This document shows, one piece after another, positions 9,971 to 53,042 of a stretch of DNA of 64,000 nucleotides. Every line of letters starts with the position of its first letter. Within the stretch, counting starts at the first letter, position 1. Under the pieces are notes generated by a model, which made no database searches, was not told the DNA's origin, and worked only from the letters and a program-made list of their open reading frames with translations. The position numbers and the translations under genes are program-made. Source of the stretch: Acidobacteriota bacterium (GTDB taxonomy: Bacteria > Acidobacteriota > Terriglobia > Bryobacterales > Bryobacteraceae); the NCBI GenBank assembly GCA_029776225.1, contig JAKOTR010000053.1:558001-622000 (forward strand), read 5' to 3'.

Positions 9971-10034
9971 CTTGCCCCTCTGCAACCATTACAACACCCT
10001 CACCCGGCGCCCGGCATGAGAGAAAAGGAGCAGT

Positions 10035-10955: not shown

Positions 10956-11050
10956 GGCCGGATTCCTCCTTCCTTTTCGGACGCCCTATTGTCCCTCATT
11001 CTAGCCCCCGGCGCACAGCTTCGAAATCGGTCCGCGGCTATGATCGTCTT

Positions 11051-12418: not shown

Positions 12419-12428
12419 ATGAGGAGCT

Positions 12429-36734: not shown

Positions 36735-38023
36735 AGGAAACCCAACCGAGCGTTCTCATAGCGGGCGGTGGACTGGCCGGGCTGGCGGCGGCGGCTGCGC
36801 TCGGCGGCGCCGGGTTCCGCGTCGATTTGTACGAATCCCGCGGGTTCCTGGGCGGCCGCGCCGCTTCGTTTCCCCTCGCGCCAAACGATCCTGAACTGAT
36901 CGACAACTGCCAGCACGTGCTGCTGGCCTGTTTTACGAACCTGCTCGATCTCTATGGCCGGCTCGGCGTCGCGGATTGCATCCGTTTTCACCGCGAGTAT
37001 TACTTCGTCGAGCCGGGCGGCCGCGTCTCGGTCCTTCGCCGCGGCGCCCTCCCCGCCCCGCTGCACCTCTCGCGCTCTTTCCTTGGCCTCAAGTTTCTGA
37101 GCGCGGCGGACAAGCTGGCCATTGCCCGCGGGCTGGCCGCGCTTCTCCGCGAGGACTCCCGCCAGGACCTTGACCGGATCACCATGCTCGACTGGCTCAA
37201 GGAAAAGCGGCAGCCTCAGCGCGCCATCGAGCGCTTCTGGCGGCAGGTGCTCGTCAGCGCCATCAACGAAGAACTGGACCGCATGGCCGCGCGCCATGCA
37301 TTTCAGGTGTTCCGGCTCGGCTTCCTCTCGGAAGCGAACGCCTGCCAGATGGGTCTTTCCACCGTTCCGCTCTCCCGGCTCTATGCGGCGGCAAACCTGC
37401 GCGGCGTTTCCGTTCACCTTCGCTCACCCGTGGAGCGCATCACCCCGGAGGGCGCGGTGATCGGCGGCGAAACGCGCCAAGCCGATTACTACATCTGCGC
37501 GGTGCCCTTCGAAAAACTCGCTTCTCTGGTTCCCGACCTCGCGCTGGATTTGCATCATTTCGAGCACTCCCCGATCACCGGCATCCATCTCTGGTTCGAC
37601 CGCCCGGTGCTCGATCTGCCCTACGCCGCGTTGCTCGACCGCACCATTCAGTGGGTTTTCAACAAGTCTGCGGGCAGATACGTTCAGGTGGTGGTGAGCG
37701 CCTCCAGAAACCTGTTGACCGCGTCCCGTGTGGACGTGATCGCGCTCGCGGTCCGCGAGCTTGCCGAGTTCTTCCCGCGCGTTGCGCAGGCGCGCCTCGA
37801 AAAAGCGCACGTGATTAAGGAAGCGCGCGCGACGTTCTCCGCCGTTCCGGGCCTCGAAGAGCGGAGGCCCGCCGCGAGCACCGCAATTCCCAACATCTTC
37901 CTCGCAGGCGACTGGACCCGCACCGGCTGGCCCGCCACCATGGAAGGCGCGGTCCGCAGCGGGTATCTCGCGGCCGAAGCCGTCGCCGAGGCCGCGGGGC
38001 GTCCAGAGAAGTTCGTGAGATAA
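36731..38023 (+). CDS. hpnE: hydroxysqualene dehydroxylase
   Basis: A 430-residue FAD amine-oxidase-fold enzyme. The dinucleotide motif is VLIAGGGLAGLAAAAALGGAG, followed by ESRGFLGGRAASF. The block NCQHVLLACFTNLLDLYGRLG is diagnostic for HpnE, which reduces hydroxysqualene to squalene for hopanoids. The C-terminal FAD motif is NIFLAGDWTRTGWPATMEGAV. GTG start overlapping trpEG. hpnC, hpnD and shc are not in the window, so the pathway must be completed elsewhere. Confidence 0.9.
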   Translation: MKETQPSVLIAGGGLAGLAAAAALGGAGFRVDLYESRGFLGGRAASFPLAPNDPELIDNCQHVLLACFTNLLDLYGRLGVADCIRFHREYYFVEPGGRVSVLRRGALPAPLHLSRSFLGLKFLSAADKLAIARGLAALLREDSRQDLDRITMLDWLKEKRQPQRAIERFWRQVLVSAINEELDRMAARHAFQVFRLGFLSEANACQMGLSTVPLSRLYAAANLRGVSVHLRSPVERITPEGAVIGGETRQADYYICAVPFEKLASLVPDLALDLHHFEHSPITGIHLWFDRPVLDLPYAALLDRTIQWVFNKSAGRYVQVVVSASRNLLTASRVDVIALAVRELAEFFPRVAQARLEKAHVIKEARATFSAVPGLEERRPAASTAIPNIFLAGDWTRTGWPATMEGAVRSGYLAAEAVAEAAGRPEKFVR

Positions 38024-38412
38024 TGTTCGTTGCCATGCGAAGTCTTGCATTGCTAGCCGGCTTGTTCTGCCTTCTGGCATTGCCCGCAGTCGCCGATACT
38101 CCGATGACCCGCCTGCGCGTTGAGGTGAAGAACCACAACGGGAAGCCTATCGAACGCGCCAGCGTGGTGGTGCGGTTTGTCCAGGGCCGGTCGATCGCCA
38201 AGTTCGGAAAGAATGTCATCACCAATTGGGAGATGCGGACGAACCAGGAAGGCGTCGCTCGAATCCCGAGTATCCCCCAGGGCCAGATTCGGATTCAGGT
38301 GATTGCCAAAGGCTACCAGACCTTCGGGAAGACCTTTGATGTAGACGAGGAGGAGAAAACCATCGAAATCAGGCTGAACCCTCCGCAGCCGCAGTACTCC
38401 TCGCACCAGTAG
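38023..38412 (+). CDS. exported carboxypeptidase-regulatory-like protein
   Basis: A 129-residue secreted protein. The signal peptide (SLALLAGLFCLLALPAVA) is followed by one immunoglobulin-like beta-sandwich of the carboxypeptidase-regulatory type (RLRVEVKNHNGKPIERASVVV, QEGVARIPSIPQGQIRIQVIAKGY). Start ATG at 38023 overlaps hpnE's stop; an ATG four codons on is also possible. Such single domains usually bind peptide or carbohydrate; function unknown. Confidence 0.75.
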   Translation: MFVAMRSLALLAGLFCLLALPAVADTPMTRLRVEVKNHNGKPIERASVVVRFVQGRSIAKFGKNVITNWEMRTNQEGVARIPSIPQGQIRIQVIAKGYQTFGKTFDVDEEEKTIEIRLNPPQPQYSSHQ

Positions 38413-38418
38413 GAGAGC

Positions 38419-38709
38419 TCAGCCCACGATTTCCCAAGTGTGCCGCTCTGGCGCTGCCGGGCGATAGCCCGCGGGCAGGACGGCAAGATTCGCAAGCTGT
38501 GCCGCAGCGGCGGCCCGGGCTGCAAGCGTGACTCGTCGCGCCCATTCGATGAGATCGGCGGCCTCTTGAAGCGCCGTTTCGCGCTCTGCGCTCCCCGCGG
38601 GCAGAGAATCCAGGTGACGCCGCAGCTCCGCCAACAACCCCTCCGCCTTTCGATAGAGCCCGGCCGACACCGCGCGCCGCAGCTCATCCGCTATGCGCGT
38701 CCCGCTCAT
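38419..38709 (-). CDS. small FliT-like protein downstream of fliD
   Basis: A 96-residue, largely helical protein rich in alanine and arginine (AVSAGLYRKAEGLLAELRRHL, then ADLIEWARRVTLAARAAAAAQLANL). Its ATG overlaps the fliD stop by four bases, so it is translated with fliD. FliT, FliS and FlgN chaperones are encoded in this position in many bacteria and are short helical proteins like this one. I see no motif that proves it, so the assignment rests on position and helicity. Confidence 0.55.
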   Translation of the reverse strand: MSGTRIADELRRAVSAGLYRKAEGLLAELRRHLDSLPAGSAERETALQEAADLIEWARRVTLAARAAAAAQLANLAVLPAGYRPAAPERHTWEIVG

Positions 38710-40040
38710 CGGTACTTCTGCGCAGTGATCCGCATCGCCTCAAACATGGAGTTGAGGTAGATGGCCTGCTGCTCGAGCGTCGCGATCAGCGCATCGGCCG
38801 CCGCCATTTGCTCGGTGAGCGCCCGGCGTAGGTTTTCGATCCGATCCTCCGTTTCCGATATGTGCTTGCCTTCGGCGACGATGCTGGCGTTGATGGAGTT
38901 CGCGGCGGTCGTGAGAATGCCGTTGGTGTCGTTCTCCAGACTATCCATAATTCCGGTGGCGGCATTGAGGAAACCTCCTTCGCCGGCCTTTCCGAGAAAC
39001 GCAATCAGTTCGTCGTAATTCTCGGCGGCTTTCTGGAACGCCGACACGTCGAATGACAATCTGCCCTCCTGGTCGAATGCCAGCCCCAGATCCGTCATCG
39101 AACTGAATTTGCCCGTGCCGCCTGTGTACTGGATGATCGACCGGAGCGAGTCCCAAACCGTGAGAATCAGTCCCTGGCCCGCCAGCGCGCCGGCGTTCGG
39201 CCCGCGGTGCTTTTCGAGTTCGTCCACCGCGGCGTTATAGGAATTGACAAGCGAAGAGATCGCGTTCTGGATGGCCGTTGTCGAACGGCTCACGGTCACC
39301 GTGGCGGTGCCTTCCGAAAGCAGGGTGGCCGTAAGACCCGGCGCCAGCGTGATGGTGCGTGAATCGCTCGGCAGCGCATCCACGCCGTTGACCTTGTAAG
39401 TTGCGTAAAACCCGTTCGGGGGATCGTCCGGGAACAGGTCCGTGGTCCCGTCGTTCAACTGCATGGCTACGGGGCCCAGCTTCGTGCTCTGCAGCGCCAG
39501 CCGGTAGTCGGGCTCGGTCCCCGACCCTATGTTGACGACGGTGGCCTGTATGTCGAGCCCCGCGCTGTTGATGGCCGCCGCCAGGCCGTTCAACGTGTTC
39601 GAAGCGGGTCTGATTTCAACGCCGTTCAGAGTGTAGACGGGATTCGGGTTCGCGCTGATGGTCTGCGTGGAGGGATCGGTGGCCCGCTCCAGCCCGTCCT
39701 TGCTCATGACGGTGCTGTACGCGCCCAGGCTCGTCACTTCGATCGTATAGGTTCCGCTGAAAGCCCCCGTTCCCACGGTGGCGTTCAGCACCGCACCGTT
39801 GGAAATCGATGTCGAGAAAGAACTGAGGCCAGCGGCATTGTTCAAGCTCGAAATCGCGTTCTGCACGGCCATAACCTTCGCGTTCAAGGAGCCGATGGCG
39901 CTCGATTCCGCTTCGAGCCTCTGCTTCGCCAACTGCATCTGCATCAGAGGAAGGGACGCAATGGCGACCGCCCGTTCGATAATCGCCGTGAAGTCCGACG
40001 AGTACCGGCTGGTCCCCGAAAAAAGTGTGCTTCCGCTCAT
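38706..40040 (-). CDS. fliD: flagellar hook-associated protein 2 (filament cap)
   Basis: The filament cap that folds arriving flagellin. This 444-residue protein has the paired N- and C-terminal helical D0/D1 regions typical of FliD: an N-terminal block (FTAIIERAVAIASLPLMQMQLAKQR) and a C-terminal coiled coil (RIENLRRALTEQMAAADALIATLEQQ). The middle is threonine/serine-rich and beta-structured. It is transcribed after fliC, separated by 107 bases with a strong hairpin. No clear ribosome binding site is seen. Confidence 0.93.
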   Translation of the reverse strand: MSGSTLFSGTSRYSSDFTAIIERAVAIASLPLMQMQLAKQRLEAESSAIGSLNAKVMAVQNAISSLNNAAGLSSFSTSISNGAVLNATVGTGAFSGTYTIEVTSLGAYSTVMSKDGLERATDPSTQTISANPNPVYTLNGVEIRPASNTLNGLAAAINSAGLDIQATVVNIGSGTEPDYRLALQSTKLGPVAMQLNDGTTDLFPDDPPNGFYATYKVNGVDALPSDSRTITLAPGLTATLLSEGTATVTVSRSTTAIQNAISSLVNSYNAAVDELEKHRGPNAGALAGQGLILTVWDSLRSIIQYTGGTGKFSSMTDLGLAFDQEGRLSFDVSAFQKAAENYDELIAFLGKAGEGGFLNAATGIMDSLENDTNGILTTAANSINASIVAEGKHISETEDRIENLRRALTEQMAAADALIATLEQQAIYLNSMFEAMRITAQKYR

Positions 40041-40079
40041 GTTCTTGACTGCGTTCCCGCTTTCCCTGTTAAACGCTTA

Positions 40080-40113
40080 CGGCCGGCAGGCGCCCGGAGA
40101 CGCCTGCCGGCCG
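40080..40113 (-). terminator. hairpin between fliC and fliD
   Basis: A 13-bp perfect stem (CGGCCGGCAGGCG / CGCCTGCCGGCCG) with an 8-base loop. On the minus strand it begins 35 bases past the fliC stop and is followed by TAAGCGTTTAAC. It probably ends or stabilises the abundant flagellin message and lowers read-through into fliD. Confidence 0.6.
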
Positions 40114-40147
40114 GTTGCCCGCAGCGCTTACGCTACGGAGAATCGGT

Positions 40148-41647
40148 TTAGCGCCTGAGAAGGCTTAACACCCCCTGCGGAGCCTCGTTGGCCTGGGCCA
40201 AGGCCGCCACCGAGGCCTGCTGCATCACCAGTGCCCTGGTGAGGTTCGCCGCTTCAGACGCAATGTCGGCATCGCGGATGCGCGATTCGGCGGCCGAGAA
40301 GTTGCTGATCTGCGACTGGGCCAGATTGATCGCGTACTGCAACTTGTTCTGGCCGGTTCCGACCCTGCCCTGCACCAGGCCGAGAGTAGCGACGGCGTTG
40401 GTCAGAGCTGTGATCGCCGCCATGGCGTTTCCGATTGGGCTCGCTCCGGCATCCGGATCGGAGACCTCAACCGACTGCAACCCGCTGGCAGCAACCAGAC
40501 CGGTGCCGGCAACGGCGCTGTACGAGCTCACAGAGAATTCGTTCGAGCTCTGGATCGTGATTGTGTTCGCCCCCGTGTACGATGCCAGGGCATAGATGCC
40601 CAGCGAAGCGGTCGCAGCATTGATCGCCGCGATTGCGGAGTCGATGTCAGCGCCCGTGACGTCGTCCAGAACGACCGTGACCGAACCGCTCGCGTTCTGG
40701 AAGGTCAAGGTTTCGGCTGCGGACGCGGCAGTAATCGCAGTGAACGCCGCGGCCGCTACACGGTAGACGCCCGCGTTGTCTGTCGTAGCGGCATCGGTTC
40801 CCCTGATGCCGGTGCCCGCCGTCGGGGCGGCTATACTCACCGAGAACGCCCGCGTTCCGCCGAAGGCCAAATGGCCGTTGTTGTCCGTCACCGCGGTGAT
40901 GCCGTAGGTGCCCAAAGCCGTGTTGAGCTGTTTAAGCACTTCCGCCCCGGAGATTCCCGAAGCACCGCCAGTGACCGTGACCGCCACCGAGGTGGTTGCC
41001 TGCGCAACCGGATCGTACAGCGCGAACGTGAAGACCTGGTTTCCGTTCGCCAGAAATACGTTAGCGCTGTTGTTCAGATCGACGTTGCCTACCGTCGTGC
41101 CTCCGCCCGCGATGGTCGTTCCGGCGATCCCCAGGCCTGCCGAATCCACGCGGTTCGCGGCTCCGCTCAGGTCAATTTGCACCTTCGCGTTTTCCGTCGA
41201 GCTGCCCCCGCCGATGTATACCTCGATCAGCGCGTTGTTCGCCCCGCCGGCGACCAGACCGATGTTAGCCGCCTGCCGGTCGATTTCTTTCAGCAGCGCC
41301 TGGTACTCATCGTTCAGAGTGTCGCGGCTGCCGCTGAAAGTCGAAGAGGCGGACTGCGTGGCCAGCGTCTTCAGCCGGTCGATGATTTTCGAAATGTTGG
41401 TCAACCCGCCATCGACGATTTGCAGCACACTGATGCCGTCGTTGGCGTTCCGCACGCCCTGCGTCAACTCGGCGATGTCGCTGCGGTACTTGTTGGCCAC
41501 CGCCAAACCAGCCGCGTCATCGCCCGACGCGTTGATGCGGTAGCCGGACGTCACCCGGGTGATGGTCCTGTGTTGAAAATCGTTGTTCACTCGAAGGTTT
41601 TCTTGCGCAACCATCGAGGTTACGTTGGTAACGATTGAATACGACAT
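40148..41647 (-). CDS. fliC: flagellin
   Basis: The filament subunit, 499 residues. The conserved ends are clear: SIVTNVTSMVAQENLRVNN and TRVTSGYRINASGDDAAGLA at the N-terminus, and RIRDADIASEAANLTRALV with VLSLLRR at the C-terminus. The middle (~150-390) is a serine/threonine/alanine-rich variable region, a likely glycosylation surface. The start follows the methyltransferase stop by four bases. A sigma-28-like promoter and two GGA sites lie just upstream. It is the last-but-two gene of the fliW-csrA-glycosyltransferase cluster and is probably the substrate of the glycosyltransferases. Confidence 0.97.
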   Translation of the reverse strand: MSYSIVTNVTSMVAQENLRVNNDFQHRTITRVTSGYRINASGDDAAGLAVANKYRSDIAELTQGVRNANDGISVLQIVDGGLTNISKIIDRLKTLATQSASSTFSGSRDTLNDEYQALLKEIDRQAANIGLVAGGANNALIEVYIGGGSSTENAKVQIDLSGAANRVDSAGLGIAGTTIAGGGTTVGNVDLNNSANVFLANGNQVFTFALYDPVAQATTSVAVTVTGGASGISGAEVLKQLNTALGTYGITAVTDNNGHLAFGGTRAFSVSIAAPTAGTGIRGTDAATTDNAGVYRVAAAAFTAITAASAAETLTFQNASGSVTVVLDDVTGADIDSAIAAINAATASLGIYALASYTGANTITIQSSNEFSVSSYSAVAGTGLVAASGLQSVEVSDPDAGASPIGNAMAAITALTNAVATLGLVQGRVGTGQNKLQYAINLAQSQISNFSAAESRIRDADIASEAANLTRALVMQQASVAALAQANEAPQGVLSLLRR

Positions 41648-41651
41648 GGGT

Positions 41652-42527
41652 TCACATCCTGTTTATTGAGTTGTCCCGGCATCCTGCCGGCCTATCCTCC
41701 GTATCGGCGGCTTCGGCTGCGGCTTGAATTCTTTTCTGTGCACCCCCGCCGGCTTCGCCAACGCTCTTCGTCTTCACGCCCCGTGCGAAACCGCGGCAGA
41801 AAGCCAGGTGCCCCGGGTTGTCCGTCAGCTTCCAGGCTTCCACGGCATCGAAGCCCGCGGCGCGCACCATGTGCGCCAGGCAATGCAGGGTGGGCACCCA
41901 CCAGTTCGTCGGATTGCCTCCGTACTGGTTGTCGGGATAGAACTCCGCCACCATCTGTCCTCCTGCGTAGCCCCGGCCCAGGCCGCCGCGGTAGGGACTG
42001 TAATCGTCCAAAATGGCCGATTCCACGTAGATCTCGCCGTCGCAGACCGCGCTCAACCGGTCGAGCGCCAGCAGCGGATATCGCAAGTGGTACAGCGTGC
42101 CGAAACAGAACACCACGTCGAAACGGCCCGCGTTCTCCTCGGCAATGTCATAGACGGACATCTCCCGCCGCTGGCAGCGCTCCTCGCTGTAGCCCAGGGC
42201 CGCGCGGCAGAAATCGAATGTTTCCCAGGCGCGGCGGTCGCTCTGCTTTAGCGTGCCGAGGTAATCCGAAAAATCGTCCACCGCCAGCACGCGCGCCGCT
42301 CCGCGCCGGAGCGCCTCGAAGCTCCAGTAGCCGTCCCAGGCGCCCACATCGAGCACGGTCTTCCCGCTGAGGTCCGCCGGGATGCGGTAAGCGTCGCGAT
42401 TGATCGGCGCCCAGCCCGGCGTTACGACTCCGCCCGGCAGCTCGATCCGGTGATACCAGTAAGGGAATCGCGCGACGCCTTCCTTCAATGCCGCAATATC
42501 AGGTTCGCGAACAGACAAGTCCGCCAC
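41652..42527 (-). CDS. SAM methyltransferase, CmoB/DUF1698-like
   Basis: About 291 residues. The fold follows CmoB-like enzymes: FPYWYHRIELPGGVVTPGW, SAM motif VLDVGAWDGYWSFEAL, and FCFGTLYHLRYPLLALDRLS. I start it at GTG 42527, which has GGAGG nine bases upstream; this still overlaps the preceding TPR gene by 29 bases. CmoB itself modifies wobble uridine in tRNA. In this setting, wedged between flagellar glycosyltransferase genes and fliC, methylation of the flagellin glycan or protein is an equally good guess. Its 3' end contains the candidate fliC promoter. Confidence 0.83.
   Translation of the reverse strand: MADLSVREPDIAALKEGVARFPYWYHRIELPGGVVTPGWAPINRDAYRIPADLSGKTVLDVGAWDGYWSFEALRRGAARVLAVDDFSDYLGTLKQSDRRAWETFDFCRAALGYSEERCQRREMSVYDIAEENAGRFDVVFCFGTLYHLRYPLLALDRLSAVCDGEIYVESAILDDYSPYRGGLGRGYAGGQMVAEFYPDNQYGGNPTNWWVPTLHCLAHMVRAAGFDAVEAWKLTDNPGHLAFCRGFARGVKTKSVGEAGGGAQKRIQAAAEAADTEDRPAGCRDNSINRM
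41654..41690 (-). promoter_or_regulatory. two GGA sites in the fliC leader (candidate CsrA targets)
   Basis: Site 1 (41676-41690) is CCGGC-AGGAT-GCCGG, a 5-bp perfect stem that displays GGA in a 5-base loop. Site 2 (41654-41662) is ACAGGATGT, which overlaps the probable ribosome binding site seven bases from the fliC start and keeps the GGAUGU half of the CsrA consensus. The GGA cores are 25 bases apart, within the range CsrA dimers bridge. CsrA binding here would block translation. fliW and csrA are at the other end of the same cluster. Confidence 0.6.
41701..41727 (-). promoter_or_regulatory. sigma-28 (FliA)-like promoter for fliC
   Basis: TCAAG (41727-41723), then 14 bases, then GCCGATAC (41708-41701) on the minus strand. 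The flagellar sigma-28 consensus is TAAAG or TCAAG, 14 bases, GCCGATAA, so this differs at the last base and fits the spacing. A start about seven bases past GCCGATAC would give a leader of about 48 bases before fliC. The promoter lies in the 3' end of the methyltransferase gene, so fliC could be transcribed independently of the upstream genes. Confidence 0.6.
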
Positions 42528-45009
42528 TTGGCCTTTCCTCCGGTTGTTTGCTTCCCAGCCACTCGCGCCACATGCGGCGGTAGGCATTTTCTACACGCCG
42601 GGCGAACAAGGGGCCGTCGGTTAACGCTGAGTTCGCGAGCCGGTTGCGAAGCCCGGCGCGCAGACTTTCGAGCAGGTCCGGCCGGGACGCCTTCGCCGCA
42701 GCCAGTTCCACGTACTCTTCCAGCGACGCCGCGACCCAGTCCCCAAGCCCCGCGTTCTCGAGCAGACTCACGCCCACGCGGGAGGCGTGCGTCGCGCCGG
42801 CCAGCGTCACCACCGGCACGCCCATCCACAAAGCCTCGCAAGTCGTAGTGGTGCCGTGATACGGGAACGTGTCGAGCGCAATATCGATGCGGTGATACGT
42901 CCTCAGATGCTGCTCCGGACTAACCGGACCGAGCAGCTCGATGCGCGCCGGATCCGCGCCGCACGCGCGGAAGCGCTCCCATACCAGGCGGCGCGTCGAT
43001 TCATCCACCAGCGGGGCGGACTTGAGCACGAGCCGGGCGCCGGGCACCGCGGCCAGCAGCGCCGACCACGCTTCGATCATCCTGGGCGTCACCTTGGCCA
43101 GAATGTTGAAGCAGCCGAATGTGATGTGGCCGTTGGCGCGCGCGGGGAGATCCGAAACCGGCGGAGCGCCGGCCGGCGGTTTGTAACACAGGAACGCCCC
43201 GGGTAATCGCACGAGCCGTTCCGTGTAGAGATGGTCGGTGAGCCCCGGAGGGTCGGCGAGCGCGTCCGTTATGCGGTAATCGACCGCCGCCAAACCCGTG
43301 GTCGCCGGATACCCGCACCAGGTGACCTGCACCGGCGCGGGCTTGCGCGCAAAAACGAGCAGCCGGCTTCCCGCGGTGTGCCCGGCCAGGTCCACCAGGA
43401 TATCGATCTCATCCTCGCGGATCACTTCGGCCGCCCTCGCGTCGGGCATACCTCGGATGTCGCGCCAGTGGTCGGCCAGAACCCGGAAGCGCTCCGTTAC
43501 GGCATCCGGACGCGCGACGTTGGAATAGCAGAAAACTTCCACCGCGCTGCGGTTGTGCGCCGCCAGAAGGGGCTCGGCGAAATACGCCACCGAATGGGTG
43601 CGGAAATCCGGGGACACGTAGCCCACACGCAGGCGGCGCTCCGGATCCCGGTCGTTCCGGTGCTCGGGCGCGCCCTCCGCAAGCTTCCGGTGCCGCTCCC
43701 CCCAGCGGCGATGTTCCTCGAAAACCACCTCCGGCGGACACAGATCGTCGTAATGCAGATAAAAGAAAAAATTCGAAAACGGGCTGGAGCTTTTCGGGTC
43801 CAGTTCGAGTGCCTTGCGGCTCTCCGCCAGCGCCTCTTTGAGCCGCCCCTGGTCTCTGAGGGTTCCGGCCAGATTGACGTAAGGTTCGGGCAAATCCGGC
43901 CGCAGGCGGATCGCCTCGCGGAAACAGGCCTGCGCCTCCTCGATACGCCCCTCGCCGCGCAGCAGGTCTCCCAAATTGTTGTGCGCTTCGGCCGATTCCG
44001 GCCTGAGCTGCACGGCGCGCCGGCCAGCCTCCACCGCCTCTTCGCGCAGGCCGAACTCTTTCAGCAAGGCGCTGAGGTTCAGCCAGGCTTCAAAGTAATT
44101 GGGGTCGGCCGTCAGCGCCCGCTCGTAGCACTCCCGCGCCCTGGCCCCCCTCCCTAGCGCGTTCCCCAAATTGTTCAGCGCCTCGGGTGAATCCGGCCGG
44201 AGCCGCACGGCTTGCTCACAGCAGGCAAGCGCCTCTTCGGTCCGCTCTTTCTTCAGCAGAATCGCCCCGAGATTGCAGTACGCCTCCCCGAAATCGGGCT
44301 TGAGCCGCAGCGCTTCCCGGCACGCCGCTTCCGCTTCATCCAGCCGGCCCAGGCAGAGCAGCGCCGCCCCCAGGTTCGCGTGCGCCGCGGCGGATTCCGG
44401 AGAAATCGCGACCGCGCGCCGGCAGGAATGAAGGGCTTCCTCGAAACGGCCCAACCGCTTCAGCGCCCCGCCCAGGTTGACATTCGCTTCGAGGTGATCC
44501 GGGTTGCGGCGCAAGACCTCCTCAAACGCCCGCACCGCCTCGGGCAGTTCTCCGGAAGCCAGCAGCGCGCAACCCAGCCGGTACTGCGCCTCGATGAATC
44601 CGGGCTTGAGCCGCACAGCTTCGCGGAGCGACCGTATGGCCTCCGGGTAGCGCCGCTCCCGTTCGAGCGCGCGGCCCAGGTTGGCATGCGCCTCCGCATA
44701 GCCGGGCGACAACCGCACCGCCTCGCGGAAACGCGCTATGGCCTCCTCGCGCCGCCCCGCCGACTCCAGCACCAGCCCCAAATTGTTGTGAAACGGAGCG
44801 ATGCCCGGGGCGAGCGCCACGGCTTTGCGGATCCGCTCTGCCGCACCCTTGGTATCCCCCCGCTGCCACAGCACCATCCCGAGCAGGTGGTGCGCGTCGG
44901 CGCAGCGCGGGTCGCGGGAGAGGATTTTTCGATACCCCGCCTCGGCCGCGTCGAGCCGCCCGGCCCGATGGTGCTCAAACGCCGCCGCCAGGGCCGCTGC
45001 TTCAGACAC
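42499..45009 (-). CDS. TPR protein with GT41 (SPINDLY/OGT-type) glycosyltransferase domain, copy A
   Basis: An 836-residue protein. Residues ~1-430 are about a dozen tetratricopeptide repeats. Residues ~455-815 are a GT41 O-GlcNAc transferase-like domain. The catalytic histidine region is VGYVSPDFRTHSVAYF, the UDP-binding lysine region FGCFNILAKVTPRMIEAW, and the conserved DTFPYHGTTTTCEALWMGVP loop is present. GT41 enzymes put N-acetylglucosamine (or fucose) on serine/threonine of proteins held by the TPR superhelix. GTG start with GGAGGAG upstream, overlapping the previous gene. Flagellin is the likely substrate from location. Confidence 0.93.
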   Translation of the reverse strand: MSEAAALAAAFEHHRAGRLDAAEAGYRKILSRDPRCADAHHLLGMVLWQRGDTKGAAERIRKAVALAPGIAPFHNNLGLVLESAGRREEAIARFREAVRLSPGYAEAHANLGRALERERRYPEAIRSLREAVRLKPGFIEAQYRLGCALLASGELPEAVRAFEEVLRRNPDHLEANVNLGGALKRLGRFEEALHSCRRAVAISPESAAAHANLGAALLCLGRLDEAEAACREALRLKPDFGEAYCNLGAILLKKERTEEALACCEQAVRLRPDSPEALNNLGNALGRGARARECYERALTADPNYFEAWLNLSALLKEFGLREEAVEAGRRAVQLRPESAEAHNNLGDLLRGEGRIEEAQACFREAIRLRPDLPEPYVNLAGTLRDQGRLKEALAESRKALELDPKSSSPFSNFFFYLHYDDLCPPEVVFEEHRRWGERHRKLAEGAPEHRNDRDPERRLRVGYVSPDFRTHSVAYFAEPLLAAHNRSAVEVFCYSNVARPDAVTERFRVLADHWRDIRGMPDARAAEVIREDEIDILVDLAGHTAGSRLLVFARKPAPVQVTWCGYPATTGLAAVDYRITDALADPPGLTDHLYTERLVRLPGAFLCYKPPAGAPPVSDLPARANGHITFGCFNILAKVTPRMIEAWSALLAAVPGARLVLKSAPLVDESTRRLVWERFRACGADPARIELLGPVSPEQHLRTYHRIDIALDTFPYHGTTTTCEALWMGVPVVTLAGATHASRVGVSLLENAGLGDWVAASLEEYVELAAAKASRPDLLESLRAGLRNRLANSALTDGPLFARRVENAYRRMWREWLGSKQPEERPSGGLVCSRT

Positions 45010-47458
45010 TCCGCTCCTCCCACATCCGCCGGTAGGCGGCTTCCAGATCGCGCGTGAATCCCGCCGCATCGGTCAGCGGCGAAGCGGCCATTCGGCCGCG
45101 CAACCCCGCTCGTATCTCCTTCAGCTTCGAAATATTTCCCGCCAGAGCTGCCGCACGCTCTACGTAGGCCGCCTCATTGCCCGCCGCCAACTCCCCCAGT
45201 CCGACCTGCTCCAGCAGGCTCACGCCCACCCGCGAAACATGGGTCGCCCCGGCGAGCACCACCACCGGAACCCCCATCCAGAGCGCCTCGCAGGTTGTCG
45301 TGGTGCCGTGATACGGGAAGGTGTCCAGGGCGATATCGACGCGGCTGTAGAACGCCAGATGTCGGGCATGGGAAGACGTCGTGCCCACAATTTCGATCCG
45401 CGCCTCCTCGATCCCCTGCCCGGCAAACATTTCCAACAAGCGCCGGCGCGTTTCTTCGTCCGCCAGCGCGCGCGACTTCAGCAACAACCGCGACCCGGGA
45501 ACCCGGCGAAGAATGGCGGCCCACGCAGCCACCACCGCCGGCCGTACTTTCGGCAGCGCATTGAACAACCCGAAGGTGATGTGCCCGGTCTCCAGAACAG
45601 GCGGCGGCCCCGGTTCCGGGGCGTTCGCCGGAGGCTGGTAGCACAAAAACCCGCGCGGCAAGCGCACCAGTGTTTCTGTGTGCAGGTGCTCCGTGGTCCC
45701 CGGCGGGTCGCACCAGGCGTCCGTCAGGCGGTAATCGATGGCTTCGAGTCCCGTAGTGTTCGGATAGCCGATCCAGGTGACGGCCACCGGCGCGGGCCGC
45801 CGCGCGAACATCGGCAGCCGGTTGCCCGACGTGTGCCCCGCCAGATCCACCAGGATGTCGATCTGTGCGCGGCGCACGAGCTCGGCAGCCTCGTCGTCTG
45901 TGAGCCCCCGTATGTCGTGCCAGCGGCAAGCCAGCGCCTGAAAGCGGGGCGTGGCCGCATCCGGCCGGCCGGAGGAAAACAGGTGGATCTCAAACGCCTC
46001 CCGGTCGTGCGCCCGCAGCACCGGCTCGATGAACCAGGCGCAGGAATGCTTGCGGAAGTCCGGCGAAACATAACCGATGCGACGAAGCGCGCGCCCGCCC
46101 GTGCCCGGCCGCGGCGCCGGCCGCCCGTGGATTGCCGCCCACGCCCGGTGCTCCTCGAAAATCTCGGCCGGTGTCCAGCGTGCGTCGTAATTCAGGCAGT
46201 AAAGCAGGTTCGAGTGCGCGGGAGCGAAATCCGGCCGCAGCGCCAGCGCCTGCCGGAACGCCTGAACCGCCTCTTCCACCCGCCCCTGCTGGTACAGCGC
46301 CGCCCCCAGGTTGCTGAATGCCGGGAAAAACTTTGGATCGGCCGCGGCGGCCTCTCGTGCCGCCTGAACAGCCTGTTCGAGGCGGTTTGTCTCGATTAGC
46401 GCGCTTGCCAGATTGCTCAGCGCCTCGGGCCAACCTGGTTTGAGCGCCAGCGCCAGGCGGTAGCTCGCGATGGCGTCTCCCGTCCAGCCCGCGCGCACCA
46501 GAGCGTGGCCCAGCGTGTTATGCGCTTCCGCGTAGCGGGGGTGAATCCGCAGCGCCTCCTTCGCGCACGCGATCGCTTCCTCCAGGCGGTTCCGTGACAG
46601 ATAGCATGTGGCCAGGTTGTGATGCGCCTCGGCGTATTCCGGGCGCCTCTTCAGCGCCTCGCGGTAAGATGCGATGGCCTCGGCGAAACGCCCCTGCATC
46701 TGAAGGGCGATACCCAGAAAGTTCGCCGCCTCTGCATCGTCGGGCTGGCGACCGAGGTTTTTCCGGCACAGCGCCTCCGCCTCCGCGAACCGCTCCTGGC
46801 GGATGATCGTGACGATCAGCGCGCGGCGTATATCCGGAAGCTCCGGCCTTAGTCGAAGCGCCTCGCGGAATGCGCGCTCCGCTTCCGCAAACTCTCCCTG
46901 AGCAAACAGCAGCGCGCCGAGGTTTATGTGCGCATCCGCATAATCCGGGTTCAGCCGCAAAGCTTCGCGGAAGCATTCCACCGCCCGCTCCTTCCGGCCG
47001 AGCGCGCGCAGCGCCACCCCCAGGTTGTTGCGCGCTTCCGCCAGGTCCGGCCGTGCCGCGACGGCGCGCTCGTAATGCTCGACCGCTTCCTCTAAACGCC
47101 CCTTGCGCAGCAGCACGTTCCCCATGTTGAGTTCGGCCTCGGCATAGCCGGGCTGGATCCGCAGAGCGCTCTCGTAAGACCGGATCGCCTCATCCAGCCT
47201 TTCGAGCGACTCCAGCACGGCGCCCAGATTGTTGTGCAGCAGGGCGGCGTTTGGCTGCCGCTTGACGGCTTGCTTGATCAGCTCGTAGGCGCGGGGGTGA
47301 TCGCCCGCCTCCTTGGCCAGCAATCCCAGCAGGTGCAGGGCGTCGGCGTTACCCGGATCCTTCTGGAGCGCGGCGCGGTAGAGACGTTCGGCTTGCTCGC
47401 GCTCTCCGGCCCGGTGATGCTTGAGGCCGCGCTCGATAAGGTCACCGGCTCCCGGCAT
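45002..47458 (-). CDS. TPR protein with GT41 (SPINDLY/OGT-type) glycosyltransferase domain, copy B
   Basis: An 818-residue protein with about twelve TPRs (~1-420) and a GT41 domain (~450-805). Key blocks match copy A: IGYVSPDFRKHSCAWF, FGLFNALPKVRPAVVAAW and DTFPYHGTTTTCEALWMGVP. Catalytic histidine and lysine are present. It overlaps the 945-residue gene by 17 bases upstream and copy A by eight bases downstream. The two copies are similar throughout but clearly diverged, so they may modify different residues or act in sequence. Confidence 0.93.
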   Translation of the reverse strand: MPGAGDLIERGLKHHRAGEREQAERLYRAALQKDPGNADALHLLGLLAKEAGDHPRAYELIKQAVKRQPNAALLHNNLGAVLESLERLDEAIRSYESALRIQPGYAEAELNMGNVLLRKGRLEEAVEHYERAVAARPDLAEARNNLGVALRALGRKERAVECFREALRLNPDYADAHINLGALLFAQGEFAEAERAFREALRLRPELPDIRRALIVTIIRQERFAEAEALCRKNLGRQPDDAEAANFLGIALQMQGRFAEAIASYREALKRRPEYAEAHHNLATCYLSRNRLEEAIACAKEALRIHPRYAEAHNTLGHALVRAGWTGDAIASYRLALALKPGWPEALSNLASALIETNRLEQAVQAAREAAAADPKFFPAFSNLGAALYQQGRVEEAVQAFRQALALRPDFAPAHSNLLYCLNYDARWTPAEIFEEHRAWAAIHGRPAPRPGTGGRALRRIGYVSPDFRKHSCAWFIEPVLRAHDREAFEIHLFSSGRPDAATPRFQALACRWHDIRGLTDDEAAELVRRAQIDILVDLAGHTSGNRLPMFARRPAPVAVTWIGYPNTTGLEAIDYRLTDAWCDPPGTTEHLHTETLVRLPRGFLCYQPPANAPEPGPPPVLETGHITFGLFNALPKVRPAVVAAWAAILRRVPGSRLLLKSRALADEETRRRLLEMFAGQGIEEARIEIVGTTSSHARHLAFYSRVDIALDTFPYHGTTTTCEALWMGVPVVVLAGATHVSRVGVSLLEQVGLGELAAGNEAAYVERAAALAGNISKLKEIRAGLRGRMAASPLTDAAGFTRDLEAAYRRMWEERSV

Positions 47459-50279
47459 TGCGCAGCGCCTCCGCCACTCTTTCCATCACTTCCGCCCAGC
47501 CGCCCGGCTGCGTTTGCCGGAACAGCCGCATCCCCGGATACCACGGCGTATCGCCGCGCCCCGGGGGATAGCACCAGTCCGCCGCTTCGGAAAGCAGAAC
47601 CCAGACTGGCTTTCCGAGCGCCCCGGCCAGGTGGGCGATCATCGTATCCACCGAGATCACCAGGTCCAGATTGGCGATGGCGGCGGCTGTGTCGGCGACA
47701 TCGCGGAATTGCCCGCCCAAATGCCTCACCGGGATGCCACTCAACTCCCACGACTTCGGCCCGTATTGCAGACTGAACAGCTCCACGCCCGGAACGTCCG
47801 CCAGCCGGTTGAATTCCGAAGCCGGCATCGACCGGCTCCGGTCGTTCGCCTGCTTCGGGTTGTCCGCCCAGCACAGCCCTACCCGGAGTTTTCCGCTATT
47901 GCCCAGGCGCTCCCGCCAGCGCTCAACCAGCGCCGGATCCGGCTGCAAATAGGGAGTTCTTGAGGGAATCGTTTCAGGCGTTGTCTTCAACACTCTGGGC
48001 AGGCTCTGAAGGGGAAGCTGAACGTCAAAACCGGGCAGTGGGGCGCCGTAGGGAATCACACCGTCCACGCCCGGCGCCGAGGCCAGCAAACCGGCCAGCT
48101 CCGGCTGGCACTCGAGGAACACCTTCCCACCGGCCGCTTTCACTTGCGGCGCGAACCGCACGAACTGAATCGTGTCTCCTAAGCTCTGCTCGGCCCACAG
48201 CAGGATGCGTTTCCCCTGCAACGGCGAGCCGTCCCACTGCGGCTGCGGGAACTGATCGGGAGAAACGCCGCCGGCCTTCCACCGCCATTCGTATTCTTTC
48301 CAACCCGCCTCGAATTGCCCCCGCGCGAGCAGGTGATGCGCTACCGCCAGGTGCAGTTGCGCGGCGGCGCGCTCGACGACATCGTCCCAATCGCCCCGGC
48401 GCGTCTGCCGGAAGAGGCGTGCCGTGGGATACCACTCGCTGTGATCCGTGCCAAGCCGCCAGCGCCAGTCCGGAGAGGTCTCCAGCAGGATACACACCGG
48501 CTTGCCGAGCGCTCCCGCAAGGTGGCCGATCAGGCTGTCCACCGTGATCACCAGATCCAGGTTGAGGATCGCGGCGGCCGTGTCCAGAATGTCGCCGGAC
48601 TCCCGCTCGAGTGCAGTCACCTCAAAACCCGGCGGCAGGTCCTCCAGTTGCTCCGACCCAGGACCGCGCTGCAGACTGTAAAACGCCGTGTAGGGAACCT
48701 CCGCGAGCCGCGCCAGCGCGGACAGCCGGATCGAGCGCGCCCGGTCGTGCCTGTGCTTCGGGTTCCCCGCCCAGGCCAGCCCGACCCGGAACCGGTCCCC
48801 GGCATCCAGGCGCGCCCGCTCGATGCGCTCCGGAGGCACGCGCAGGTACGGCACGCGCGCCGGCCGCACACCCAGGATCCCCGGCAGGCTCAGCAGGGGC
48901 GCGTGGACATCGTAGTCCGGCAGCGGCGATCCCGCCGGGACGATTTCATCCACTCCCTCGATCGTTTCCAGCAGCGGAACCAGCCGGGGTTGGCATTCCA
49001 GCACCACCCTGGCTTGCGAAACCGCCTTCACCAGCGGAACATAGCGGACGAACTGCACCGTATCGCCCAGTCCCTGCTCCGCGTGCAGCAAAATGGTCCG
49101 GCCCGGTATGGCGGAGCCGTCCCACCGCGGCCTCGGCAGCACGCGCCTGGAAAACTCCCGGCTCCTCCAGCGCCATTCGTACTCCGCCCAGCCGCGTTCA
49201 AAATCCCCGGCCTGGAGCCATGCCATCGCGCGGTTGACATGGGCGTCCACCAATTTCGGCGCGAGGCGCACCGCCTCCTCGAACCGCTCCAGCGCCTCTC
49301 TGAATTGCCCCAACCGCTGAAGAGCGTAACCCACCTTGTTGTGCTGTTCCGCGCCGTGCGGTTTCAGCTCAAGCGCCCGGCGATAGCAGGCCAGCGCCTC
49401 CTCGGCCCTCTCCTCCGCGATGAAAACGTCCCCGAGCGTCATGTGCGCCTCGGACATCTCCGGTTTCAGTTCGATTGCCCGGCGCGCGCACGCCGCCGCT
49501 TCCTCCAGCCGCCTCTGTTGGAGCCGCACAGCCGCCAGATTGACATTTGCTTCGGCCAGCAGCGGCTTCAACTCCAGCGCCCGGAGGGCCTCCGCCTCAG
49601 CCTCTTCAAACCGGTCCATCGCCACCAGAACAGCCGCGAGGTTCGAGTGCGCCTCGGCCAGATCCTGACGGCACTCGATCGCCCGGCGGCCGCAGGATGC
49701 CGCCTCCTCCAGCCGGCCTTGCTCCTTGAGCACCGCGCCCAGGTTCACCCAGGCTTCAGCGTAGCCCGGTTTCAACCGCACCGCCTCGTAATAGCAGGCG
49801 ATTGCCTCCGGCGCCTGCCCCAGCGCCGCCAGCGCGTTGCCCAGGTTGTTGTGCGCTTCGGCAAAGCCGGGCTTCAACCGGAGCGCCTCCCGGTAATGCG
49901 CCACCGCCTGATCCAAGAGCTTCAGGGATTGAAAACAATTGGCCAGGTTGATATGCGCTTCGGCGTACGCCGGATCGAGATCCAGCGCGCGCCGGAACGA
50001 ACGCACCGCTTCCTCGATGCGGCCTTCGGCCTGCAACACCGTCCCGAGATTGTTATGAAACGCCGGAATGGCGGGGTTTGCCGCGATCGCCCGCCCGATC
50101 AGATCGATTGCTGGATCACGCCGCCCGGTTTGCGCCAGAGCCATCCCCAGCAGGTGCAGCGCGTCCACGTTGGTAGGGTCGGATGCCAATATCCTGCGGT
50201 AAATGGCCTCCGCCTCCTCGAACCGCCCCGCCTGATGGTGTTCAAGCGCGCCGGTGAGCGCTTCCAGCACGGCGTTCAT
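47442..50279 (-). CDS. TPR protein with two tandem GT9-like glycosyltransferase domains
   Basis: A 945-residue protein. Residues ~1-335 are about nine TPRs. Two copies of a heptosyltransferase-like (GT9) domain follow, at ~340-635 and ~640-945. Each has the same ordered motifs: EQGLGDTVQF / EQSLGDTIQF, WAGNPKHRHDRARSI / WADNPKQANDRSRSM, and VDSLIGHLAGALGKPV / VDTMIAHLAGALGKPV, and each opens with a short helix pair ending YEWRWR/K. Both copies look active. Start is ATG 50279, in an ATGA overlap with the previous gene; a much longer open frame upstream only mirrors that gene. Confidence 0.9.
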   Translation of the reverse strand: MNAVLEALTGALEHHQAGRFEEAEAIYRRILASDPTNVDALHLLGMALAQTGRRDPAIDLIGRAIAANPAIPAFHNNLGTVLQAEGRIEEAVRSFRRALDLDPAYAEAHINLANCFQSLKLLDQAVAHYREALRLKPGFAEAHNNLGNALAALGQAPEAIACYYEAVRLKPGYAEAWVNLGAVLKEQGRLEEAASCGRRAIECRQDLAEAHSNLAAVLVAMDRFEEAEAEALRALELKPLLAEANVNLAAVRLQQRRLEEAAACARRAIELKPEMSEAHMTLGDVFIAEERAEEALACYRRALELKPHGAEQHNKVGYALQRLGQFREALERFEEAVRLAPKLVDAHVNRAMAWLQAGDFERGWAEYEWRWRSREFSRRVLPRPRWDGSAIPGRTILLHAEQGLGDTVQFVRYVPLVKAVSQARVVLECQPRLVPLLETIEGVDEIVPAGSPLPDYDVHAPLLSLPGILGVRPARVPYLRVPPERIERARLDAGDRFRVGLAWAGNPKHRHDRARSIRLSALARLAEVPYTAFYSLQRGPGSEQLEDLPPGFEVTALERESGDILDTAAAILNLDLVITVDSLIGHLAGALGKPVCILLETSPDWRWRLGTDHSEWYPTARLFRQTRRGDWDDVVERAAAQLHLAVAHHLLARGQFEAGWKEYEWRWKAGGVSPDQFPQPQWDGSPLQGKRILLWAEQSLGDTIQFVRFAPQVKAAGGKVFLECQPELAGLLASAPGVDGVIPYGAPLPGFDVQLPLQSLPRVLKTTPETIPSRTPYLQPDPALVERWRERLGNSGKLRVGLCWADNPKQANDRSRSMPASEFNRLADVPGVELFSLQYGPKSWELSGIPVRHLGGQFRDVADTAAAIANLDLVISVDTMIAHLAGALGKPVWVLLSEAADWCYPPGRGDTPWYPGMRLFRQTQPGGWAEVMERVAEALRNAGSR

Positions 50280-51595
50280 GACATCAGAACCTCGCGCACC
50301 TTGGAGATGACTTCGGACCAGTCGCCCGGCCGCGTCTGGCGGAACAGCCGCATGGTCGGATACCAGGGACTGTTGTCGCGCCCCAGCATCCAGGGCCAGT
50401 CCGGCGCGTAAGGCGTCAGATTCCAGACCGGCATTGCCAGCGCTCCGGCTAAATGCGTCAGCGTATCGTCCCCCGAGATGACCAGATCCAGTTCCGCCAT
50501 GGCTTCCGCCGTTTCGGCCAGGTTTTCGGTCTTCTCCAAAGTCACGAAGCGGATTCCGGGCACGTCGAGCAGCGGCTCGAGCACGGCCCGGTCGCCGGTC
50601 CAGGCCAGTCCCACCATGCCGGTTTCGCCGCCGCGCTTTGCTTTTCGCGTGGGCACGTTCAGATACGGCACGGCTGCGGGGACTCTGTCCGGGGTGGTGC
50701 CGAAGATTAAAGGCAGGCTTCCCAGCGGGGCTTGCACGTCGAAAGCGGGCAACGGGTCTCCCGCCTCCACCACTTCCGCAATTTCTGGCCTGCCGCGGAA
50801 CAACGGCGCCAGTTGCGGCCGGCATTCGAAGATGACCCTTCCCCCGCGCTGGGCCGCCAGCGGCAGATAGCGCGCGAATTGGAGCGTCTGGTTCAGGTCC
50901 GGCTCGGCGTGAATCAGAACCGTGCGGCCGTCGAGCGCCGACCCGTCCCATAGCGGCGCCGCAAAAGTGCGCACCGGATAGCGCCCCGTCTTCCAGCGCC
51001 ACTCGTATTCCCGCCAGCCCGCCGTGAGGTCGCCCACCAGCAACAGCGCAAACGCCCGGCGAAGGTGCGTTTCGGCATCCTCCGGGGCCAGGGCAAGCGC
51101 ATGGTCAAAACAGGCCAGCGCCTCGCCAATCATGCCCTGCGCGCGAAGCGCGTCGCCCAGCTCGGCATACGAGCCCGAACGCTCAGGGCGCAGCCGGACA
51201 ACCTCCAGGCGGTGCGCAAGCTCATCCTCGAAGAGCCCCAACCGGCGGCAGGTGTTTGCCAGGTTGCCATGGGCTTCGGCATAGTCGGGGTCCAGCCGCA
51301 GCGCTTCTTCATAGCACAGCCTGGCATCGGCGAACCGCCCGGCCTGGAACAGCACGTTGCCCAAATTGTTGTGATAAAAAGGCGCTGCGGGATTGATCCG
51401 GATGGCGCGCCCGAGCAGGCTGAGGGCCTGCTGCTGGTCGCCGCGCTGAGAAGCCAGCACGCCGAGCATGTGCAGGGCGTCGGCGTTCCTCGGATCGGCG
51501 GCCAGCACGTCCCGGTAAATTGCCTCGGCGGCAGCCAGGTTGCCGGCTTTGTGGTGTTCTATGGCGTCGCGCAGGCGCTCCGCAGTCATCGGCAT
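50276..51595 (-). CDS. TPR protein with degenerate GT9-like domain
   Basis: A 439-residue protein with about five TPRs (~1-160) and one GT9-like domain (~165-435). Compared with the same domain in the next gene, the EQGLGDT loop reads EPDLNQT, so the acidic residue expected to be catalytic is lost. The basic NPKHR-DR-RS loop is also missing, while the HLAGAL motif remains. It may be a pseudoenzyme that binds flagellin or a partner transferase. ATG 51595 has AGGAGA inside the end of csrA. The csrA gene stops five bases before it. Confidence 0.85.
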   Translation of the reverse strand: MPMTAERLRDAIEHHKAGNLAAAEAIYRDVLAADPRNADALHMLGVLASQRGDQQQALSLLGRAIRINPAAPFYHNNLGNVLFQAGRFADARLCYEEALRLDPDYAEAHGNLANTCRRLGLFEDELAHRLEVVRLRPERSGSYAELGDALRAQGMIGEALACFDHALALAPEDAETHLRRAFALLLVGDLTAGWREYEWRWKTGRYPVRTFAAPLWDGSALDGRTVLIHAEPDLNQTLQFARYLPLAAQRGGRVIFECRPQLAPLFRGRPEIAEVVEAGDPLPAFDVQAPLGSLPLIFGTTPDRVPAAVPYLNVPTRKAKRGGETGMVGLAWTGDRAVLEPLLDVPGIRFVTLEKTENLAETAEAMAELDLVISGDDTLTHLAGALAMPVWNLTPYAPDWPWMLGRDNSPWYPTMRLFRQTRPGDWSEVISKVREVLMS

Positions 51596-51599
51596 CGAT

Positions 51600-51836
51600 T
51601 TATCTCTCCTGTTTCGCCCGGAACCGGGCCGCAAGCCCGGTCAGATCGGCCGGCGCCTCCCGCGCCGCGGCCACGTTCGCCTCGCGCGTCAGTTTCACCT
51701 CTTTGCGCAAAACAACCACGTCTTTAGGCGCCAAAATGCACAACTTGACGCGCGTAGAGCCGATTTCGGTGACGCGGACCTCGACCTCGTCCCCGATCAG
51801 CACCGATTCCCCGGCCCGGCGGCGGATCACGAGCAT
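51600..51836 (-). CDS. csrA: carbon storage regulator, RNA-binding translational repressor
   Basis: A 78-residue CsrA. It begins MLVIRRRAGESVLIGDEVEV and contains VKLCILAPKDVVVLRKEV, covering both RNA-binding edges. The tail is longer than in E. coli, which is common where FliW is present, because FliW binds the C-terminal extension. It overlaps fliW by ten bases. The candidate target in this window is the fliC leader. Confidence 0.95.
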   Translation of the reverse strand: MLVIRRRAGESVLIGDEVEVRVTEIGSTRVKLCILAPKDVVVLRKEVKLTREANVAAAREAPADLTGLAARFRAKQER

Positions 51837-52291
51837 TCGGCCTCCGGGCGCGAGTCCAGCAGAGGATACTGGTGCGAGTAAGCGGACTCTTCCTGGATGG
51901 CCTGAAGCGCTACGCGCGTTTTCAGGTTCACCACCACCGGCGCGAGCAGGTTCGCCGTGGGCAGCCTGCCTTCCGCCACGGAGATGATCGCCAGGCACAG
52001 CACGTCGGTTCCTATCTCCGGCTGGCGGTCGCAGGGTAGAGCCAGCGACTTCAAATCCGCAGGCGAAATGGCAAGACGATAATCCCGCTTGACAACCAGC
52101 ACCGGGAGCGTGATGAAGCACAGGTCCGGCCGGGTCAGGCTTTGTAAGAACACGATCGGCCTGCTGGCCGTGTGCTCGATGGCGACGAACTGCCGCTCCT
52201 CTTCAAACCCGGGAAGCCCGAAAGGGAATTGGATGACCGAATCGTCTTGGTACTCAATCGTCCCGAAACGGCTGGTTGAAAACGTCGGCAT
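51827..52291 (-). CDS. fliW: flagellar assembly factor FliW (CsrA antagonist)
   Basis: A 154-residue FliW. The N-terminal FGTIEYQDDSVIQFPFGLPGFEE and the following ITLPVLVVKRDYRLAI match the family. FliW binds CsrA allosterically, or flagellin, so when flagellin is exported FliW is freed to release fliC translation from CsrA. First gene of the minus-strand run; an 88-base gap separates it from the divergent transaldolase gene and holds both promoters. Confidence 0.95.
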   Translation of the reverse strand: MPTFSTSRFGTIEYQDDSVIQFPFGLPGFEEERQFVAIEHTASRPIVFLQSLTRPDLCFITLPVLVVKRDYRLAISPADLKSLALPCDRQPEIGTDVLCLAIISVAEGRLPTANLLAPVVVNLKTRVALQAIQEESAYSHQYPLLDSRPEAECS

Positions 52292-52379: not shown

Positions 52380-53042
52380 ATGAAAATCTTCCTGGATACC
52401 GCCAATCTCGAGGAGATTCGGAAAGGCGTGGACTGGGGAGTGGTCGACGGAGTCACAACGAACCCGACTCTGATTGCCAAAGAGCGCCGGCCCTTCGAGG
52501 AGCAGATCCGGCAGATTTGCGAAATCGTGCACGGCGATATCAGCGCCGAAGTGGTGAGCACCGAGGCCGGGCAGATGATCGACGAGGGGCGGAAGCTATC
52601 CCGGATTCATCCTAACGTGGTGGTGAAGTGCCCGCTGACCCGCGACGGGCTGAAGGCGACGGCGGCACTTACGCGCGAAGGCGTCCGTGTGAACGTGACG
52701 CTGTGTTTCTCTCCCGCGCAGGCCTTGCTTGCGGCCAAGGCAGGCGCCTATATCGTCAGCCCGTTTGTCGGCAGGCTCGACGATATCGGGCACACGGGCA
52801 TGGACCTGGTGGCCGACATCGTCGAAATCTACCGGAACTATGGGTTTAGGACCCAGGTTCTGGCGGCTTCCATCCGCTCGCCGCTTCACGTTGTTGAAGC
52901 CGCGCGCGCCGGCGCACACATCGCAACGATGCCATTCGCCGTGCTGGACAAGCTGTTCGATCACCCCTTGACGGACAAGGGGCTCGCGCAATTCCTGAAG
53001 GACTACAAGAAGGCCTTTCAGGAGACTCCGGTGTCTGGCTGA
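52380..53042 (+). CDS. fsa: transaldolase / fructose-6-phosphate aldolase family
   Basis: A 220-residue TIM barrel of the small transaldolase family (TalC/FSA). The Schiff-base lysine is in NVVVKCPLT near residue 85, with [13 protein letters not shown] at the N-terminus and [12 protein letters not shown]. The family includes true transaldolases and fructose-6-phosphate aldolases that sequence alone cannot separate. It is divergent from fliW and its stop overlaps the next gene's ATG. Confidence 0.93.

Follow-up and report, generated by a model that had tools for sequence, protein, structure and literature searches.

A flagellin glycosyltransferase joining tetratricopeptide repeats (TPR) to a GT-B domain has been experimentally established in Caulobacter crescentus, where FlmG binds flagellin through its N-terminal TPR domain and ends in a GT-B domain of about 288 residues (PMC7591256). 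In enterobacterial flagellin islands, GT41 genes with a SPINDLY domain lie beside fliC, together with genes for methyltransferases, DegT aminotransferases and formylation (PMC4875605), and SPINDLY itself, a protein O-fucosyltransferase of Arabidopsis, combines TPR with a GT41 catalytic domain (PMC9715652, PMC10027727). Regarding control, fliW and csrA overlap in Bacillus subtilis, and CsrA bound to the leader of the flagellin gene hag occludes its Shine-Dalgarno (SD) sequence (PMC6529632); in Clostridium, a flagellar glycosylation locus is bounded by fliW (PMC13317340). Here, a 14.7 kb gene cluster is described in a stretch of 64,000 nucleotides from an Acidobacteriota bacterium of the family Bryobacteraceae (assembly GCA_029776225.1, contig JAKOTR010000053.1, positions 558,001 to 622,000), named below as the window, from whose first letter all positions are counted. 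The cluster probably encodes a flagellin O-glycosylation module, with the FliW-CsrA sensor on one side of it and the flagellin gene on the other.

When compared with these systems, the TPR-GT9 enzymes of the window show the architecture and domain size of FlmG, with a GT-B domain of about 290 residues after the TPR domain, but FlmG is a single enzyme for pseudaminic acid under cell-cycle control, whereas the window holds four TPR-glycosyltransferases of two families in a fliW-csrA-fliC cluster. The enterobacterial islands contain one glycosyltransferase family per island, have been read as N-acetylglucosamine (GlcNAc) type and include no double GT9 or pseudo-glycosyltransferase; fliW is unmentioned in that work (PMC4875605), whereas the cluster described here starts with it. 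The GT41 enzymes share donor-binding residues with Arabidopsis SPINDLY, although the latter is a plant nucleocytoplasmic regulator and the bacterial donor is a prediction from these residues. In contrast to B. subtilis, the glycosyltransferase genes stand between csrA and fliC, and the fliC leader is embedded in the upstream coding frame. In Geobacteraceae (loci L103, L106, L111, L117, L123 and L140), TPR-GT41 and multi-domain TPR-GT9 genes, the latter with up to six GT9 domains per frame, directly precede a short fliC, but fliW was not found beside fliC in the fetched flanks; these loci are apparently a parallel, larger version of the cluster. No relevant paper on flagellin glycosylation in Acidobacteria, and none joining fliW or csrA with TPR-glycosyltransferase clusters, was found in the open-access literature, subscription journals not being covered. 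SPINDLY-type GT41 enzymes beside fliC and flagellin glycosylation by a TPR enzyme (FlmG) are already known; new, as far as the open-access literature shows, are the placement in a FliW-CsrA operon, the occurrence of a double GT9 and a pseudo-GT9 together with two SPINDLY-type GT41, the statistics over the family and the findings on the leader.

Gene content and association with flagellin genes

Profile matches and inspection of start sites located all the genes of the original prediction in the order and on the strand claimed for them, with the overlapping or almost touching junctions also described there. The features, all on the minus strand, are as follows.

51827-52291, minus: fliW, flagellin-binding CsrA antagonist (PF02623, 88.4 bits), sole fliW match in the genome
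51600-51836, minus: csrA (PF02599, 58.1 bits), its start overlapping the fliW stop
50276-51595, minus: TPR-GT9, probable pseudo-glycosyltransferase whose GT9-like domain is degenerate; catalytic motifs damaged, TPRs intact
47442-50279, minus: double TPR-GT9, both GT9-like domains intact (heptosyltransferase fold; about 48354-49208 and 47463-48320)
45002-47458, minus: first TPR-GT41 (PF13844, 162.6 bits), SPINDLY-type donor residues
42499-45009, minus: second TPR-GT41 (PF13844, 197.3 bits), SPINDLY-type donor residues; GTG start at 45009 with SD, ATG at 45069 possible
41652-42530, minus: S-adenosylmethionine-dependent methyltransferase (PF08003/PF13489), start GTG 42530 with SD or ATG 42587; 3' end forms the fliC leader
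41701-41727, minus: sigma28-like fliC promoter inside the methyltransferase gene, TCAAGCCG-N11-GCCGATAC
41676-41690, minus: predicted CsrA site 1, hairpin CCGGC-AGGAT-GCCGG, with covariation and a model match at E 1.6e-5
41654-41663, minus: predicted CsrA site 2, AACAGGATGT, covering the ribosome-binding site of fliC; its last base is the first of the methyltransferase stop TGA
40148-41647, minus: fliC, single flagellin (PF00669/PF00700)
38706-40040, minus: fliD, filament cap (PF02465/PF07195)
38419-38709, minus: small protein of three helices (model pLDDT 85), placed where FliT usually lies

The association of such enzymes with flagellin genes was surveyed in 200 genomes of the order, in 138 of which FliW was present, and profiles made from the proteins of the window were run over about 80 stretches surrounding fliW. 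In 61 stretches fliC followed fliW-csrA, and a TPR-GT9 or TPR-GT41 gene was located beside fliC on the same strand in 26 of them. TPR-glycosyltransferase genes were found between csrA and fliC in five (the window, L044 and L079 from one genus, L035 and L089), with four enzymes in that interval in two. The predicted order of fliW, csrA, several TPR-glycosyltransferases and fliC does recur in relatives, as L044, from a second genus, shares with the window the arrangement csrA-GT9-GT9-GT41-GT41-...-fliC. Two more genera are represented by L025, whose contig ends in a glycosyltransferase gene, and L078, where a GT9 gene directly precedes fliC and fliW lies elsewhere. Therefore, the cluster can be called unusual, as it had been, for its four enzymes between csrA and fliC, but not for the presence of a TPR-glycosyltransferase beside fliC, which is common in the family and also seen in Geobacteraceae.

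Among the FliW-bearing genomes of the order, 40 of 50 high-scoring TPR-type GT9 genes were within 25 kb of fliW, and the same was true for one of 19 lower-scoring GT9 genes and for 12 of the 62 GT41 genes of the order. Since 25 kb to the left and right of fliW amounts to about 1% of such a genome, no more than about one gene would be expected there by chance. Flagellin is thus well supported as the substrate of the enzymes by genomic association.

The genome of the window encodes one fliW and one flagellin, a second Flagellin_N match on contig C31 being weak and probably FlgL, and exactly two GT41 genes, both in the cluster. The central region of FliC contains about 20% Ser plus Thr, and the protein has no Cys. 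The TPR-GT9 and double TPR-GT9 genes meet in an ATGA overlap, and the near-contact between the methyltransferase gene and fliC is explained by the methyltransferase frame running through the regulatory leader of fliC. Both ends of the cluster are clear, since the flanking genes, for a transaldolase (52380-53042) and a carboxypeptidase-regulatory-like open reading frame (38023-38412), lie on the other strand. The gene after fliD had been labelled FliT-like, a name that is not confirmed, as no FliT family match was found in profile searches and no significant match in a fold search with its model; what is conserved is its position, with homologues after fliD in relatives. FliS is encoded elsewhere in the genome.

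Leader and promoter of fliC

The fliC leader is contained in the final codons of the methyltransferase gene. The hairpin of site 1 (41690-41676), with GGA in its loop, ends 28 nucleotides upstream of the fliC start codon, and AACAGGATGT (41663-41654) places a further GGA over the ribosome-binding site. Read as protein, positions 41652-41710 give PAGCRDNSINRM, with the fliC promoter and the CsrA leader inside the methyltransferase coding frame; the corresponding leader of L044 and L079 occupies about 130 nucleotides of DNA outside the upstream gene.

Hairpins with 5 or more base pairs and GGA in their loop were detected in 44 of 72 fliC leaders of the family, compared to 11% of shuffles and four of 72 upstream controls, the window sequence being counted twice among the 72 leaders without changing the picture. 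Covariation was analysed in an alignment of 30 leaders selected by eye for the element, a selection that biases the result towards pairing, though not towards compensatory change. In this alignment, compensatory changes were observed at all six pairs, and 86% of the cells were paired, a percentage higher than in any of the 500 shuffles or the slid controls. The covariation score (0.549) also exceeded all 500 shuffles (mean 0.245) and every slid version. A covariance model matched the window at fliC with E 1.6e-5, no match of similar strength being seen at a glycosyltransferase gene, and in relatives its confident matches were also at fliC. These data support control of fliC by FliW-CsrA at the RNA level, so that the switch on fliC proposed originally now has a predicted binding leader, with a covarying GGA hairpin and a GGA over the ribosome-binding site.

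Some variation was seen in the family. In L027, L078, L085 and other leaders, the covarying hairpin is kept with AAGAT or ATGAT in the loop instead of AGGAT, such that the GGA of site 1 is lost and that over the SD sequence stays; CsrA binding could possibly be weakened or altered there. In L008, L009, L057 and L090, three or four tandem flagellin genes follow fliW-csrA, the first leader being unlike the later ones. Flagellins of more than 1100 residues are encoded in the Bryobacteraceae loci L015, L039, L059, L028, L036 and L055 (a frame of 2197 in the latter), some of these unusually long proteins with doubled C-terminal domain matches.

Just before the leader, TCAAGCCG-N11-GCCGATAC (41727-41701) has the best sigma28-like score in the 14.7 kb cluster. 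In 37 of 53 fliC leaders of the family, a site of this kind reached at least the 95th percentile for shuffles of the same leader, and FliA-family sigma factors are encoded in the genome. A similar site precedes fliW in L044, L079, L023 and L060, and a weak one in the window. Because sigma28-like sites lie before fliC and, in several relatives, before fliW, the enzymes with the sensor and the flagellin probably form two transcription units read by the same sigma factor, with the CsrA brake on the flagellin unit only. Thus, with a separate sigma28-like promoter for fliC lying in the methyltransferase gene, the enzymes need not be co-made with flagellin, although this had been assumed.

The enzymes and the predicted sugar donor

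The nearest solved structure to the protein encoded at 42499-45009 is Arabidopsis SPINDLY (7y4i, E 3.3e-118), followed by the T. terrenum OGT and human OGT; the protein encoded at 45002-47458 was assigned to GT41 by Pfam and alignment. In SPINDLY, GDP-fucose is contacted by K689 at the guanine, K665 at the pyrophosphate, Y744, T747 and S496 at the sugar, and T748 and E752 at the ribose (PMC10027727; PMC9715652), and human OGT differs from it at L866, R904 and C917 (PMC10027727). As revealed by alignment, both GT41 proteins of the window have equivalents of K665, K689, Y744, T747, T748, E752 and S496, and at the positions of OGT L866, R904 and C917 they show K, T or F, and Y, respectively, so neither carries the residues of the OGT type that uses UDP-GlcNAc. 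As SPINDLY-type donor residues are present in both, the two GT41 enzymes are predicted to use a GDP-6-deoxyhexose donor and not UDP-GlcNAc. A homologue of GDP-mannose 4,6-dehydratase, the entry point to GDP-6-deoxyhexoses, is encoded in the genome outside the cluster region (396 bits, compared to a cut-off of 415).

The double TPR-GT9 protein matched PF01075 with 37.3 bits (cut-off 22). Its fold was modelled because a phmmer search of the GT9 C-terminus against PDB sequences gave no match. In the AlphaFold2 model (pLDDT 87), domain 1 shows the heptosyltransferase (GT-B) fold, with Z scores of 19.5 to the GT9 protein 3tov, 18.1 to WaaF, 18.0 to WaaC and 16.6 to the protein heptosyltransferase TibC, and both domains retain the GLGD/SLGD, NPKxxxDRxRS and VDS/VDTxxxHLAGAL motifs. 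As for the first TPR-GT9 (51595-50276), its description as degenerate proved correct: EQGLGDTIQF has become EPDLNQTLQF, the donor loop with NPxHxxDRxRS is deleted and VDT is changed to GDD. Since the lost Asp is, by motif comparison with WaaC, the catalytic base, this protein is probably a pseudo-enzyme.

The methyltransferase matched TIGR04290 at 104.8 bits, under the cut-off of 300, and its CmoB-like match was also far below cut-off; both scores speak against the tRNA enzyme CmoB, and the position favours a glycan role. From this position, it is a candidate glycan O-methylase. In L044, the corresponding place between the GT41 genes and fliC (9651-13214, oriented on fliW) is occupied by genes for a formyltransferase, a DegT/LegC-like sugar aminotransferase and a GT4 enzyme, a set suggestive of flagellin modified with an N-formyl amino-deoxy sugar in that genus. 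These genes and the methyltransferase look like lineage-specific decorations of the glycan.

Alternative readings and the proposed mechanism

Some of the data weigh against the cluster being a flagellin glycosylation module of this kind. GT41 genes of the order are not near fliW in 50 of 62 cases, so GT41 is not flagellin-only, and 35 of the 61 fliW-fliC stretches have no TPR-glycosyltransferase in reach, so the module is optional. The two remaining genomes of the genus, whose completeness is just 88% and 77%, lack the cluster, the GGA hairpin is missing by the 5 bp criterion in 28 of 72 fliC leaders, and no nucleotide-sugar genes were found in the cluster. If the enzymes glycosylated another protein or a surface polymer and stood beside fliC by accident, the 50 distant GT41 places would be expected, as would the spread of TPR-GT9 domains over many phyla, where flagellin was mostly missing from the flanks that were fetched. 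Homologous clusters beside unrelated substrates, named originally as what would speak against the prediction, have a partial counterpart in the GT41 genes away from fliW; the high-scoring TPR-GT9 genes, in contrast, are largely near fliW, in many genera and either before or after fliC, and such varied positions imply a shared function and not one inherited accident. As the cluster also holds no other candidate substrate gene, an accidental position appears very improbable. It could also be argued that FliW-CsrA gates translation of the glycosyltransferases, with enzymes and flagellin rising and falling together, as their genes are linked to csrA by overlapping junctions and a weak model match (E 0.1) precedes the first TPR-GT9 start at 51652-51597, with ACAGGAGAG at the ribosome-binding site. 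However, this hairpin lies inside csrA without GGA in its loop (UUGCG), the relatives have their confident matches at fliC and not at glycosyltransferase genes, and fliC has a promoter of its own. CsrA control of these genes is then unsupported, the claim that the switch meters the enzymes finds no support, the RNA model being confident only at fliC, and a common rise and fall is improbable.

With respect to the sugar, the enzymes could be GlcNAc transferases using UDP-GlcNAc, as OGT and GmaR are. Listeria GmaR adds GlcNAc to flagellin, and the GT41 fold plus TPR architecture fits this reading. The enterobacterial GT41 islands have also been interpreted as GlcNAc type (PMC4875605). Against it, both enzymes show SPINDLY Lys689 and Tyr744 in place of the Leu866 and Cys917 of human OGT, neither has an arginine at the Arg904 position and the best solved match is SPINDLY, so the analogy with OGT and GmaR drawn in the original prediction misleads on the sugar, and a GlcNAc transferase is unlikely here. 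Closer to an even choice, although still the weaker option, is that the first TPR-GT9 has no role and is merely a gene in decay: damage is seen in all three catalytic motifs, whereas those of its likely orthologue in L044 are intact. On the other side, its 440-codon frame is open, the deletions are in frame, and neither the TPRs nor the remainder of the domain show damage.

For the flagellin O-glycosylation module preferred here, the following binding events, activities, sugar, sites, order of action and timing are proposed. The TPR domains would hold unfolded flagellin in the cytoplasm, where the two SPINDLY-type GT41 domains would glycosylate the central region at Ser/Thr, with a GDP-linked 6-deoxyhexose as the most likely donor. 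The two heptosyltransferase-fold domains of one TPR protein may extend this sugar or modify other sites, and the methyltransferase would cap the glycan. The first TPR-GT9 would be non-catalytic, probably a flagellin-binding adaptor, or in decay. Transcription of fliC would start from its own sigma28-type promoter within the methyltransferase gene, and CsrA on the hairpin and the ribosome-binding site would block its translation until FliW releases the block during flagellin export. Being made with the sensor, upstream of the CsrA block, the enzymes would already be present when flagellin is made on release, and the glycan would be added and capped before export. In its most specific form, with flagellin O-fucosylation (or use of another GDP-6-deoxyhexose) by SPINDLY-type enzymes, assisted by a dead TPR-glycosyltransferase adaptor and ready whenever CsrA releases flagellin, this proposal is tentative.

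The locus joins two controls of flagellin that were known separately, translation under FliW-CsrA and cytoplasmic glycosylation by TPR enzymes, in a little-studied phylum, and it provides Acidobacteria with a FliW-CsrA leader that has covariation support. The predicted donor sugar departs from the GlcNAc reading given to date to flagellin enzymes with SPINDLY domains, and the cluster may serve as a test case for how TPR-glycosyltransferases find their substrates.

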